Shown: one piece after another, positions 5,926-45,224 of the stretch
How the letters are laid out: each line of letters starts with the position of its first letter
How positions within the stretch are numbered: the first letter of the stretch is position 1
DNA from: Pseudomonas sp. PSE14
GTDB lineage: Bacteria; Pseudomonadota; Gammaproteobacteria; Pseudomonadales; Pseudomonadaceae
NCBI RefSeq assembly: GCF_029203285.1
Contig: NZ_CP115669.1
Span: 3,968,001-4,032,000 of the forward strand
Length of the DNA stretch: 64,000 nucleotides
Direction: 5' to 3'
Notes under the pieces: generated by a model
Databases searched by the model: none
What the model saw: the letters and a program-made list of their open reading frames with translations, nothing else
Told to the model about the DNA's origin: nothing
Made by a program: the position numbers and the translations under genes

Positions 5926-6828
5926 ATGCCCCTCAATCAGTTGCTCCGCACCCGCCTGGTCGGCTTCGGCCAGATCTACCTGCAGGCCGACGCCCGCTTC
6001 GGCCTGATCCTGCTGCTGACCATCGCCTGGTCCGCGCCGCAGCTGCTGCCCGGCGCGTTGCTGGGCGCCCTGCTCGGCCCGCTCACCGCGCGCTTCGTCC
6101 GCGAGCCGCAGGCGGATATCGACGCCGGCCTGCACGACTACAACCCGATCCTCATCGGCCTGCTGCTGCCCTTCCAGTTCCAGTGGTCGCTGGGCCTGGT
6201 GATGCTGACTGTCGCCGCCATCCTCACCAGCGTCGCGGTACAGGCCGTACTGCTGCGCCAGTCGCGCCGGCGCCTGGGCCTGCCGGCCTACACCTCGGCC
6301 TTCGTGCTGCTGGGCTGGATCTCGGTGGCGCTCGGCAATGCGATCGGCTTGGCCCCGGCGGACGGTCTCGCCTGCCTGTCCTGCGGCACGTTGAACCCGC
6401 TGCTGGACTCGACGGCGCTGGGCTTTGGCGAAGTGATCTTCCTCGGCGAGCCGCTGGCCGGCCTGACCATCGCCCTTGGCCTGCTGCTGGCCGATCGCCG
6501 TGCCGCCTTCTGGGCCCTGGCCGGCGCCGCCGGCGCGCTGGCCATCGCGCCCTTGTTCGGGCTGCCGGCCGCCTCGGCAGAAGCCGGCCTGCTCGGGCTG
6601 AACGGCGCCCTGGCCGGCATCGCCCTGTCGCTGCGCTACCGCAGCGCGCTGGCGCCGCTGTGCGGCATCCTGCTCGCCGTCCTGCTGCAGCCGTGCTTTG
6701 CGCTGATCGGCCTGCCGGCATTCACGGCGCCGTTCATCTTCGCCTGCTGGCTGGTGATCCTGGGCCAGCGCCTGCTGTCGACGCTGCTGCGCAACCTGCA
6801 TTCGGAACGCGCCGGTCCCCGTGTATAG
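5926..6828 (+). CDS. Urea transporter (Yut/SLC14-like)
   Basis: A 300-residue, very hydrophobic protein of the urea transporter family. Family motifs occur twice, reflecting the internal duplication: GLHDYNPILIGLLLPF (~residue 69) and GLLGLNGALAGIALSL (~225). Each half also ends with a hydrophobic segment such as TAPFIFACWLVILG (~265). About ten membrane segments are predicted by eye. It probably facilitates urea (or ammonia/short amide) entry across the inner membrane. The start MPLNQLLRT was chosen because the region upstream is non-coding. The next gene, a DapF-like protein, begins 32 bases downstream, so co-transcription is likely. Confidence 0.85.
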   Translation: MPLNQLLRTRLVGFGQIYLQADARFGLILLLTIAWSAPQLLPGALLGALLGPLTARFVREPQADIDAGLHDYNPILIGLLLPFQFQWSLGLVMLTVAAILTSVAVQAVLLRQSRRRLGLPAYTSAFVLLGWISVALGNAIGLAPADGLACLSCGTLNPLLDSTALGFGEVIFLGEPLAGLTIALGLLLADRRAAFWALAGAAGALAIAPLFGLPAASAEAGLLGLNGALAGIALSLRYRSALAPLCGILLAVLLQPCFALIGLPAFTAPFIFACWLVILGQRLLSTLLRNLHSERAGPRV

Positions 6829-43286: not shown

Positions 43287-43348
43287 AACCGCTGTGCCTG
43301 GCTCAAGGACGAGCCTTCCAACCTATTCACTGCACAGGAGTTATCGCT

Positions 43349-43528
43349 ATGTTTTTTGGGATATTTGTTCTTATCTCTGGCGTTCTGTATTTGTGCGAAG
43401 TCTTCGGACTTATCGGTGCAGACGTTAAATGGGGGCTTCCGGTTGCACTGATTTGCTTCGGTGCATCAGAAGCTTGGAGAGCCTTCAGCTCTCGACAGTC
43501 CACTGCCAATAAATCTCCGACGGCCTAA
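43349..43528 (+). CDS. Small membrane protein of unknown function
   Basis: A 59-residue protein beginning MFFGIFVLISGVLYLCEVFG and continuing with a second hydrophobic stretch (LPVALICFGASEAW) and a polar tail. Two short helices separated by a GADVK turn suggest an inner-membrane hairpin. A good CAGGAG lies 6-10 bases upstream. It is 62 bases after the DUF2188 gene and equally AT-rich, so the two may have been acquired together. No family recognised. Confidence 0.6.
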   Translation: MFFGIFVLISGVLYLCEVFGLIGADVKWGLPVALICFGASEAWRAFSSRQSTANKSPTA

Positions 43529-43537
43529 AAAGGCTCA

Positions 43538-43570
43538 GCTGCGCATAACTGCTTGCCAGTTATGCGCAGC
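43538..43570. repeat. 13-bp perfect inverted repeat
   Basis: GCTGCGCATAACT (43538-43550), loop GCTTGCC, then AGTTATGCGCAGC (43558-43570). It starts 10 bases after the small membrane protein stop and just upstream of the predicted C4-like promoter. It may be a terminator hairpin or an operator. Confidence 0.7.
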
Positions 43571-43574
43571 GCAG

Positions 43575-43603
43575 TTGACCCTCGCTATCCAACGCCCTAC
43601 CCT
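43575..43603 (+). promoter_or_regulatory. Predicted promoter of the C4-like RNA / BRO-N unit
   Basis: -35 TTGACC (43575-43580), exactly 17 bases, then -10 TACCCT (43598-43603). The -35 is good and the -10 moderate. Transcription would begin near 43610, just before the first CTAAGAAAC. Confidence 0.5.
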
Positions 43604-43609
43604 CGCTCC

Positions 43610-43800
43610 CGGCGCCTAAGAAACGCCTTAAACCAGAGCGGTCCACCGCACCCGATAGCTTTTGCGGCTTTTTTGCGCCCGCGGCCTAGCCACGTCCGCA
43701 AGAAAGGTCACTCGCGCTGTCGGGAGTGGGCTAATACAAGACCCGCAAGGGGAATACGTCCGGCCCGTCTCTGGTGGGTTTCTTAGCTCCCGACTCCAAT
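43610..43800 (+). ncRNA. C4-like antisense RNA upstream of an antirepressor-type gene
   Basis: A compact domain is closed by GTCGGGAG (43719-43726) with CTCCCGAC (43787-43794). Inside are GGGC/GCCC (43728-43731 with 43763-43766) and a CCC-GCAA-GGG hairpin (43742-43751). The single-stranded remainder holds CTCTGGT (43769-43775) and TTCTTAG (43780-43786). These are complementary to ACCAGAG (43817-43823) and CTAAGAA (43807-43813), which cover the Shine-Dalgarno of the leader ORF. Both are also complementary to ACCAGAG (43632-43638) and CTAAGAAAC (43616-43624) near the 5' end. This matches the C4 RNA of phages P1/P7. The boundaries are estimates. Confidence 0.65.
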
Positions 43801-43826
43801 TACGCCCTAAGAAGCGACCAGAGGTA

Positions 43827-43919
43827 ATGGATATGCCTTTCGCCCCCAGCCTTCGCCCCGAAGGCGCTTCGCTGTACCCAACCGCTTCCCCCTCCCTTCC
43901 GGAGGTGCGTCATGTCTGA
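43827..43919 (+). CDS. Leader ORF overlapping the BRO-N gene (icd-like position)
   Basis: A 30-codon frame (MDMPFAPSLRPEGASLYPTA...) follows CCAGAGGTA. The second ATG at 43833 has the better Shine-Dalgarno spacing and gives 28 residues. Its TGA (43917-43919) overlaps the BRO-N ATG at 43912, so translation of the two is probably coupled. It takes the place of icd in the P1 c4-icd-ant unit. The Pro-rich peptide itself is not recognisable, and it may only serve coupling. Confidence 0.5.
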   Translation: MDMPFAPSLRPEGASLYPTASPSLPEVRHV

Positions 43920-44379
43920 AGAGGTCCTGATCCCCACCGTATTCACCCGCCACAAGCGCCAGCTGCGCGCCGTGCTGCTGGAAGACCAGTGCTGGTTCTG
44001 CGCCCACGACCTGGGCCGGCTGATCGGCTTTCCGCTGCTGGCCGAACGCGTGGAGCGCAACCTGGACGAGGACCAGTTCCGCCACGCCTGGATGCTCGAC
44101 GGCAGCGGCGAGTACATCGATGAACTGCTGCTCAGCGAATCGGCGATGTACGCCACGCTGATCCATTACTTCCACCCGGAAAACCGCAGCATCCGCCAGT
44201 GGCTCTCGCTGCACGTCATCCCCGCCCTGCGTGACCAGCACGCCATCAGCCTTGGCGAGCCGCGCCGGGAAATACTCCAGGGGCCGACGAGCTTGTCGGT
44301 GTTGAAGTGGCAGGGGGTGGTCTGGGTGCCGTATCAGCAGTGGCCGGTATTGAGTCCGGGGCCGGAGGGGGCCTCGTAG
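43912..44379 (+). CDS. BRO-N domain protein (phage antirepressor-like)
   Basis: A 155-residue protein with a BRO-family N-terminal domain: FTRHKRQLRAVLLEDQCWFCAHDLGRLIGFPLLAERVERNLDEDQ is the usual core, followed by LLLSESAMYATLIHYFHPENRSIRQWLSLHVIPALR. BRO-N domains bind nucleic acid and occur in phage antirepressors. There is no C-terminal KilA or ANT domain, so it may be a domesticated or truncated form. Upstream lies the C4-like RNA and the overlapping leader ORF; a GGAGG sits 7 bases before the ATG but inside the leader ORF. Confidence 0.82.
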   Translation: MSEEVLIPTVFTRHKRQLRAVLLEDQCWFCAHDLGRLIGFPLLAERVERNLDEDQFRHAWMLDGSGEYIDELLLSESAMYATLIHYFHPENRSIRQWLSLHVIPALRDQHAISLGEPRREILQGPTSLSVLKWQGVVWVPYQQWPVLSPGPEGAS

Positions 44380-45224
44380 GATGGTGTAGAGCGGAGCGAA
44401 ACCCATCGTTTCGTGTGGTGACGGGTCGCGGGCCATGCCCGCGATTTTGTTTGCTTCGGGTTGGGTGTGTATGCGCCGCTTCGGTGTGTGCTGGGGGATT
44501 TTGTTTCGCCCCCTCGGGCGAGTCACTTCTTCCAAACGCCGAAGAAGTAACCAAGAAGGCTTGCCCCTGCATCCGGGTCCCGCTTCGCGGGACTTCCCTC
44601 GTTCCATCGAAGTTTCAGGGGCCCGCCGCGAAGGGCCATCCCTGGCCCATCGCGGCTCTCGCGGCATCCATGCCGCTCAACCCCTGAAACTCCGATTCCA
44701 CTCGGCCTCCTGAAGGGGCGCTCCGGCGCGCTCGGATATTTCTCTGGAAATCTTTAAATCCAGAGCCAGAGCGGTGCGCATGCTTTCGTAGGAGCGGACC
44801 TTGTCCGCGAAGGCCCACCATTGCGCCCACGTTGCAGGACGAACACCTGTAGGAGCGAGCTTGCTCGCGAACAGAATTACCCGGCCGCACCGGCGTTAGG
44901 CGGTTCGCGAGCAAGCTCGCTCCTACGAAGAGCAATCCAGCATAAAGCAGCCAAAGTTGCCGGCGCGCGCAGAGTCCCGTCAGGAGGCCGAGTGGAGGTA
45001 TTGCGCAGAGGGGCGAGCGGCATGGATGCCGCGAGAGGCGTAGAGGGCCATGGATGGCCCTTCTACGCCGACCCTCGGAGCGATGCCGGAAGGAGGGAAC
45101 CCCGGCGAAGCCGGGGCCGGATGCCGGGACGAGCCCTTTTGGTTACTTTTCTGGCGTTTGAGAAAAGTGACTCGCCCGAGGGGGCGAAACAAAAACTCTC
45201 AGCACACACCGAAGCGGCGCAGAC
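44380..45224. other. Repeat-filled intergenic region
   Basis: 845 bases without a supported gene. Contents: a TAGGATGG-family unit (44377-44407), structured repeat copy B (plus), REP elements at 44788-44811, 44849-44871 and 44904-44926 (the last inverted), and structured repeat copy C (minus). Copies B and C are in inverted orientation with the REPs between them. Long open frames here are translations of palindromes. Confidence 0.75.
44463..44750 (+). repeat. Structured dispersed repeat, copy B
   Basis: Same hairpin order as copy A: CGCCC/GGGCG; ACTTCTTC/GAAGAAGT (44525-44532 with 44541-44548, loop CAAACGCC); TCCCGC-TTC-GCGGGA (44578-44592); GCCGCGA/TCGCGGC (44625-44631 with 44650-44656); GCGGCAT-CC-ATGCCGC (44661-44676). 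Here the closing stem is perfect: GTTTCAGGGG (44612-44621) with CCCCTGAAAC (44681-44690). The shared CCACTCGGCCTCCTGAAGGG tail follows. Confidence 0.82.

Follow-up and report, generated by a model that had tools for sequence, protein, structure and literature searches.

According to Citron and Schuster, the C4 RNA of P1 reportedly blocks the translation of icd and hence of ant, which fits the notes in the P1 record, where a1, b1, c4, a2, b2, icd, and ant1 are annotated in this order. The RNA family sRNA-Xcc1 is said, to judge by the title of Chen et al. 2011, to be a trans-acting sRNA. The CI RNA of P4 pairs with sequences on both its sides and thereby causes early termination, according to passages of PMC4825925. 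Excerpts of three further papers deal with sRNA-Xcc1. In one (PMC2996969) it gave a single band of about 100 nt on a Northern blot, and its mapped ends were 88 nt apart; another (PMC12444791) places it ahead of symE in integron cassettes of Xanthomonas; the third (PMC12189769) describes it in vesicles of Xylella and tabulates C4 and isrK as separate entries. In these excerpts sRNA-Xcc1 is taken for an integron cassette RNA or for a virulence-linked sRNA that acts in trans or is secreted, and they contain no mention of flanking target pairs. A search confined mostly to freely accessible journals found no literature joining sRNA-Xcc1 and C4; the excerpted part of PMC12189769 has both, unconnected.

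We analyzed a 64,000-nt stretch of the Pseudomonas sp. PSE14 chromosome, referred to here as the window, in which one locus has the parts of such a circuit, all on the forward strand. A putative promoter recognized by pattern match (43575–43603; TTGACC at 43575–43580, a 17-nt spacer, and TACCCT at 43598–43603) is followed by a GGCG/CGCC hairpin (43611–43627) that holds the target word a1 (CTAAGAA, 43616–43622) in its loop, and by the target word b1 (ACCAGAG, 43632–43638). After b1 there is a possible competing (antiterminator) hairpin GCGG/CCGC (43638–43649), which shares its 3' strand with the stem of a terminator-like hairpin, CCGCA/TGCGG, followed by one base and six T (43646–43674). The antisense RNA (43719–43802) has a closing stem formed by GTCGGGAG (43719–43726) and CTCCCGAC (43787–43794) and carries the antisense words b' (CTCTGGT, 43769–43775), the complement of b1, and a' (TTCTTAG, 43780–43786). 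The second target pair, a2 (CTAAGAA, 43807–43813) and b2 (ACCAGAG, 43817–43823), overlaps through b2 the Shine-Dalgarno sequence AGAGG (43820–43824) of a leader ORF (43827–43919) that has 30 codons from the ATG at 43827 and 28 from the ATG at 43833, the latter being better spaced from AGAGG. The stop codon of the leader ORF (TGA, 43917–43919) overlaps the start, at 43912, of the output gene (43912–44379), which encodes a BRO-N domain protein of 155 amino acids. The antisense words and both target pairs, with their coordinates, and the closing stem had been given in a first-pass annotation, which proved exact to the base.

That annotation had taken the RNA for a C4 RNA. The cmscan results showed that it belongs instead to sRNA-Xcc1 (RF02221): the score, 67.9 bits, exceeds the cut-off of 53, and E is 3.7e-10 for the window, so that by model score the RNA here is the same as the one described under that name. 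C4 (RF01695), c4-a1b1 (RF03163), c4-2 (RF02944), and isrK (RF01394) gave no match at E<=10 in 43540–43920, and the C4 model gave none at E<=0.05 in 20 sRNA-Xcc1 loci. In Rfam, sRNA-Xcc1 is in no clan and C4 is in CL00128. Membership in C4 was thus rejected by the covariance-model test; the C4 layout of two words and flanking targets is present nonetheless. In the Rfam alignment CTCTGGT is part of the second hairpin and TTCTTAG falls in the strand leading up to the closing stem; b' and a' are arranged likewise in the C4 model. When the RNA was folded as a single sequence, the minimum-energy structure agreed with that of Rfam in the closing stem but not in the rest.

The locus resembles C4 of P1/P7 in the order of parts, in similar spacing, in the use of two words with a duplicated target whose second copy precedes a leader ORF, in an overlapping output of the antirepressor type, and in an RNA with a closing stem, b' in a hairpin, and a' single-stranded. 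The leader ORF is likened to icd by its position in this order, and the P1 sequence after b1 contains a similar GCGG-CCGC-GCGG-T-rich stretch. The window's RNA differs in having another sequence and another first hairpin, no C4 match, and a chromosomal location. What the locus has in common with P4 CI (seqA and seqC; also IsrK of Gifsy-1) is a target copy on each side of the RNA, the upstream one followed by a terminator-like hairpin, but P4 controls replication genes and the window locus a BRO-N gene, and the RNA family differs: the P4 cI region matched C4 with 74.9 bits and, upstream, isrK with 60.8 bits, as well as c4-a1b1 with 44.1 bits, which is below the cut-off of that model. The C4-derived sRNAs of Acinetobacter baumannii (PMC5320573) are likewise many chromosomal C4-type RNAs with variable a' that seem to be processed; they differ in matching C4, and the passages of that paper concerned with them are without flanking targets or outputs. 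Judging from its sequence, we consider it very probable that the window locus is a self-silencing operon, i.e. an antisense lock of the C4 type that resides on the chromosome and uses a second RNA fold. The parts, their order and complementarity, and their covariation, conservation, and synteny are directly observed.

In the whole 5.98-Mb genome, the pattern CTAAGAA-N0-25-ACCAGAG has three occurrences, one at each target and one, on the opposite strand, at the antisense words; the reversed-pattern control gave 0 matches. The predicted duplex of the antisense RNA with the upstream target has an energy of -28.5 kcal/mol, a value reached by 0 of 2000 shuffles, and that with the downstream target has -23.3 kcal/mol, reached by 6 of 2000. 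This bears on the possibility, taken from the earlier descriptions of sRNA-Xcc1, that the RNA acts in trans on other chromosomal mRNAs. Excerpts of PMC2996969 and PMC12189769 contain target predictions with many mRNAs, but the search with both exact words found no two-word target in the RNA's own genome apart from the two flanking ones, and the words and their flanking targets change together (see below), as fits a target in cis and not conserved distant ones. We regard action in trans as extremely improbable.

In another reading the antisense domain is never released from its own mRNA, where it would fold back onto one of the two targets (downstream or upstream) and be toggled in riboswitch-like fashion by a ligand or a protein. 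In minimum-energy folds both words indeed find a partner in cis: the downstream target when 43719–43850 is folded, and the upstream target when 43608–43835 is. However, such folding back and the closing stem conserved in the Rfam model are in competition, and the measured relatives are separate small RNAs: sRNA-Xcc1 itself in the excerpt of PMC2996969, and C4-type RNAs seemingly processed from longer transcripts in that of PMC5320573. We therefore find this reading improbable.

To turn to the distribution of the family, sRNA-Xcc1 matched at E<=0.001 in 16 of 25 genomes of the genus, in 15 of them above the cut-off, and in 57 of 398 genomes of a phylum sample, 39 of them above the cut-off. The genus yielded 20 matches above the cut-off and three below; the latter (L016, L021, and L022; 34–35 bits) were without convincing word pairs and were left out of the modules. 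The upstream word pair scored at least 12 in 18 of the 20 matches above the cut-off (L015 and L020 are without b1), and the downstream pair did so in all 20. The 12 genus leaders of the window's type carry four alleles of b', and in 12/12 both b1 and b2 fit the leader's own b'.

For a wider comparison, viral and genome contigs were scanned with a 24-letter conserved RNA pattern. At least 244 instances were obtained, of which 41 were left out (12 near a contig edge and 29 with a closing stem of fewer than six exact pairs or a misplaced one); the 203 usable instances gave 132 distinct loci after removal of repeats. Among the matches listed, the own upstream pair scored at least 12 in 119 of the 132 distinct loci, compared with 676 of 5234 pairings with words of another locus (13%) and 48 of 660 shuffles. 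The corresponding values for the downstream pair were 90 of 132 among the matches listed, 312 of 5234 (6%), and 35 of 660. Both pairs reached the threshold in 82 of these loci; the downstream pair fell below it in 42 and the upstream pair in 13, again among the matches listed. As the other-locus control may hold relatives with similar words, it is conservative. The words are highly diverse, with 143 distinct upstream pairs among the matches listed, a list selected for scores of at least 12. Boxes and targets, b1 and b' included, thus covary across loci, and the independent variation that had been named beforehand as speaking against the idea of an antisense switch was not seen.

In the operon that we propose, one promoter would give a leader transcript carrying, in turn, a target copy, the terminator-like hairpin, the antisense RNA, the second target copy, the leader ORF, and BRO-N. 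By analogy with P1 C4, an antisense RNA of about 85 nt would be released from earlier transcripts. Going by the Rfam structure, it would offer one antisense word within a hairpin and one as single-stranded RNA, and it would pair at two places. At the downstream target it would cover the Shine-Dalgarno sequence of the leader ORF and so turn BRO-N off via translational coupling. At the upstream target it would sequester the 5' half of the competing hairpin's stem, upon which the terminator would form and transcription would stop ahead of the RNA and BRO-N. Since termination would come before the RNA is made, the RNA would limit its own supply, and BRO-N would be made only when the antisense RNA is scarce. 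RNA processing, the two silencing steps, and the coupling are what we infer. With regard to processing, C4 is cut from its precursor by RNase P to a length of about 77 nt; the sequence NCC lies directly 3' of the closing stem (as placed here) in 52 of the 132 distinct loci among the matches listed, and a C4-like RNase P signature is therefore not general on this evidence.

The promoter predicted in the first-pass annotation received mixed support. A pattern TTGAC-N17/18-TANNNT lies 5–8 nt ahead of the first hairpin in 14/14 leaders of the window's type examined (12 in the genus and two outside), whose further flanks mostly differ, whereas a strict consensus scan of 43300–44500 found no promoter. 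The stems of the a1 hairpin, read by eye, vary with their pairing kept (GGCG/CGCC, GGGG/CCCC, GGTG/CACC, and GGAG/CTCC).

A terminator after the upstream target copy, as in control of the P4 CI type, is present in the window as the hairpin and T run at 43646–43674. A standard terminator scan of 43300–44500 did not flag this hairpin because its 12-nt loop is above the limit of the scan. Among the matches listed, a terminator-like hairpin was found 3' of b1 in 133 of 143 loci, which were pre-selected for a good upstream pair, vs. 571 of 2860 shuffles; with that many shuffles passing, the test is a lenient one, and at times it chooses a hairpin other than the one judged by eye. A competing hairpin starting near the end of b1 was found in 89 of the 143 loci (among the matches listed) vs. 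203 of 2860 shuffles. The presence of a terminator-like and a competing hairpin after the upstream target makes control by early termination likely, in addition to the translation block.

The loci with a GGTGG terminator form a group of 30 in which the upstream pair is kept, and in 0/30 are both words found within 300 nt downstream; one locus scores 12 downstream, with other words. Outside this group, a downstream pair scoring at least 12 was found in 92 of 113 loci among the matches listed. The upstream site thus seems sufficient by itself in the GGTGG group, suggesting that these 30 loci may act through termination alone. The group comprises L027, L036, L038, L175, and 26 more, several of them from Xanthomonas, Rhodanobacter, Dyella, and Lysobacter. 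In L038, the sRNA-Xcc1 RNA (1501–1584) lies about 300 bases past a CRISPR array (24–1193, CRISPR-DR4 repeats).

If the proposed operon is real, a widespread family known so far as a virulence or vesicle sRNA gains a likely and testable job, the silencing of its own operon, and a circuit of the C4/P4 type would be seen to run on a second RNA fold and on the chromosome, with base-pairing predictions for every member. The published target lists of sRNA-Xcc1 and sXF would then be reread, because the likely main target adjoins the RNA.

The leader ORF of 28–30 codons with a stop overlapping the BRO-N start, as proposed in the first reading of the sequence, is present in the window; 18 of 19 orthologous leaders show this overlap, and 17 of the 19 have 30 codons. 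The pooled dN/dS of the leader ORF, calculated without three leaders (G012, G016, and G020), was 0.86, i.e. the peptide is nearly neutral. By contrast with the peptide the overlap is kept, so the leader ORF would matter as a coupling device rather than as a functional peptide. Among the orthologs, two BRO-N frames appear to be broken and a third has diverged strongly; without these three genes (G012, G015, and G021, also left out of the BRO-N tree), the median dN/dS of BRO-N was 0.30 (153 pairs of 18 genes), showing purifying selection.

The window protein matched Pfam Bro-N (PF02498) with 22.5 bits (E 1.8e-4), below the cut-off of 25.6, and a PHROG anti-repressor with E 1.4e-8; the Bro-N scores of outputs at related RNA loci were 30.7, 34.8, and 63.6 bits. 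No solved-structure relative of BRO-N was found by sequence, and an AlphaFold2 model made from 7 sequences had a mean pLDDT of 50.8, too low to use. To survey the outputs of the 143 loci, an ORF of at least 60 amino acids was chosen by a simple rule, of which some choices may be wrong; 129 loci had such an ORF and 14 had none. Among the matches listed, the Pfam families of the 129 outputs were Bro-N (23), Rha (13), P22_AR_C (11), P22_AR_N (9), AntA (8), KilA-N (8), ORF6N (5), and SymE (3), where one protein may match several families. The anti-repressor Ant of PHROGs (phrog_245) was matched by 38 of the 129, and NCBIfam assigned 22 of the 129 to the XAC0095 family and three to SymE (both among the matches listed). 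The XAC0095 outputs probably belong to the GGTGG-terminator group.

These outputs allow the unit to be read as one resembling a type I toxin-antitoxin system, in which BRO-N would be harmful when the RNA falls, e.g. after phage attack. That sRNA-Xcc1 also stands before SymE toxins (L024 and L043) and that several insulated modules per genome resemble addiction modules speak for it; the commonest named outputs, however, are of antirepressor-type families, and BRO-N is present where the RNA is absent. On balance we think this reading of the output rather unlikely. L043 has two sRNA-Xcc1 copies (1501–1586 and 2780–2867) on the same strand, separated by about 1.2 kb; the first precedes the SymE gene.

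The chromosomal setting was examined with a Pfam scan of 14 neighbors between 34.5 and 52.5 kb, of which 10 were named and four were without a family. The named ones were ribonucleotide reductase (nrdA and nrdB), a histidine kinase, regulators including LysR, cupin, CAP, GGDEF, a flavodoxin-like protein, and DUF2188; no phage structural or integrase gene was among these 10. The module stands behind nrdB in 11 of the 25 genus genomes: of the 12 window-type RNAs, 11 lie 0.3–3.6 kb behind nrdB on the same strand. A BRO-N gene stands behind nrdB in 20 of the 25 genomes; four are without it and one contig ends too early. The syntenic position and the ordinary neighbors between 34.5 and 52.5 kb bear out the proposal that the locus lies outside a prophage. 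Taken together, the proposed chromosomal switch of the c4-icd-ant kind with a BRO-N output holds as regards covariation, the P1 order, the ORF overlap, and chromosomal synteny, and fails as regards the RNA, which is not C4.

The same results bear on whether the locus is the leftover of a decayed prophage without present function. The broken and diverged orthologs fit such decay, the neighboring DUF2188 gene matches the phage-collected phrog_3220 (E 4.4e-34), and relatives are common in viral contigs, where the 24-letter RNA pattern gave at least 120 matches. The target pattern CTAAGAA-N1-20-ACCAGAG gave at least 120 matches in viral contigs as well; among 122 viral loci (120 from this target-pair scan and two from a scan with the window's antisense 18-mer), the antisense pair was found nearby on the same strand in 0, and a loose RNA-like motif in two. 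CTAYGTGGGGTTTCTTAG was found in 0 viral contigs. Against a leftover, the two viral contigs with the 18-mer are both AT-rich there and neither resembles the window's RNA. The conserved position behind nrdB, the ordinary neighbors, the purifying selection on BRO-N, and the exact word matching maintained through word changes also argue against a leftover, which we deem highly improbable.

The leader itself occurs in two forms. The long one, with the RNA, is found in 10 of the 20 BRO-N loci behind nrdB and in the contig that ends early. The short one, found in nine of the 20, has a1 and b1 and is devoid of the RNA, b2, and the T run; a1 and b1 have diverged in G012 and a1 is changed in G021. One further locus of the 20 has a truncated leader. 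The RNA is therefore dispensable in the nine loci, and no partner RNA was detected in the short-leader loci for the upstream target that they keep. Across six loci of the short form whose genes are intact, the 75-nt leader core has a median pairwise identity of 98.7%, compared with 73% for BRO-N third positions and 29% for the 45 nt before BRO-N. The target element has thus been conserved, or exchanged, where no cognate RNA lies in cis. Parsimony on the BRO-N tree gave five changes between the long and short forms, or six if the truncated leader is counted as short. In the short-leader loci L336, L338, L339, L341, L343, L346, L349, and L350, the a1 hairpin and a b1 of the form CAC[A/G]TAG stand before BRO-N.

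The source genome has four Bro-N places. Canonical C4 RNAs (75.7, 72.3, and 69.6 bits) with their own flanking word pairs precede the other three, one of which (L351) aligns in two frames and looks broken; behind a fourth C4 RNA (L503) there is a partial BRO-like match. C4 gave 215 matches at E<=0.001 in the genus, in 25/25 genomes and with up to 20 per genome, and in the family 75 of 119 genomes matched at E<=1e-9, with at least 33 matches in one genome. From three genomes we assembled 45 modules, 40 with a C4 RNA above the cut-off and five with sRNA-Xcc1, leaving out one C4 match below the cut-off (L537). The upstream pair scored at least 12 in 45/45 modules, a set that has no shuffle control, and a BRO-like protein lay downstream in 26 of the 45. 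Cross-talk was counted with 6-letter word pairs, 5-letter words being too loose and four of the 45 modules with short words being left out: the own target was recovered for 40 of 41 modules, and pairings across modules matched in 8 of 677 cases.

From this we tentatively propose, at slightly less than an even chance, that the genus has on its chromosomes a host-owned network in which many regulator genes are antisense-locked. The C4 and sRNA-Xcc1 folds may be interchangeable as locks for paralogous BRO-N genes, each lock having its own word pair and little cross-talk with others, and one lock would lie behind nrdB in many species. Across bacteria, by the same proposal, sRNA-Xcc1 might be a general self-silencing cassette that has taken up antirepressors, SymE toxins, and proteins of the XAC0095 family, and some of its copies might act through early termination alone.

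The C4 loci of the source genome include L499, L501, L503, L505, and L507, and others are in G019 and G001; many of these multiplied chromosomal C4 RNAs lie directly before BRO-N genes and have distinct word pairs. Two TwoAYGGAY matches just above the cut-off were noted 3' of BRO-N in the window, at 44590–44712 (reverse strand) and 45009–45075 (forward strand); they recur in related loci and may be repeats rather than that RNA. Finally, a BRO family protein at 6232–6741 of L299, a plasmid of a Pseudomonas aeruginosa river isolate, has a leader 77.5% identical to the window's over 69% of the query, and this BRO gene stands beside mercury-resistance genes and a Tn3 family transposase.
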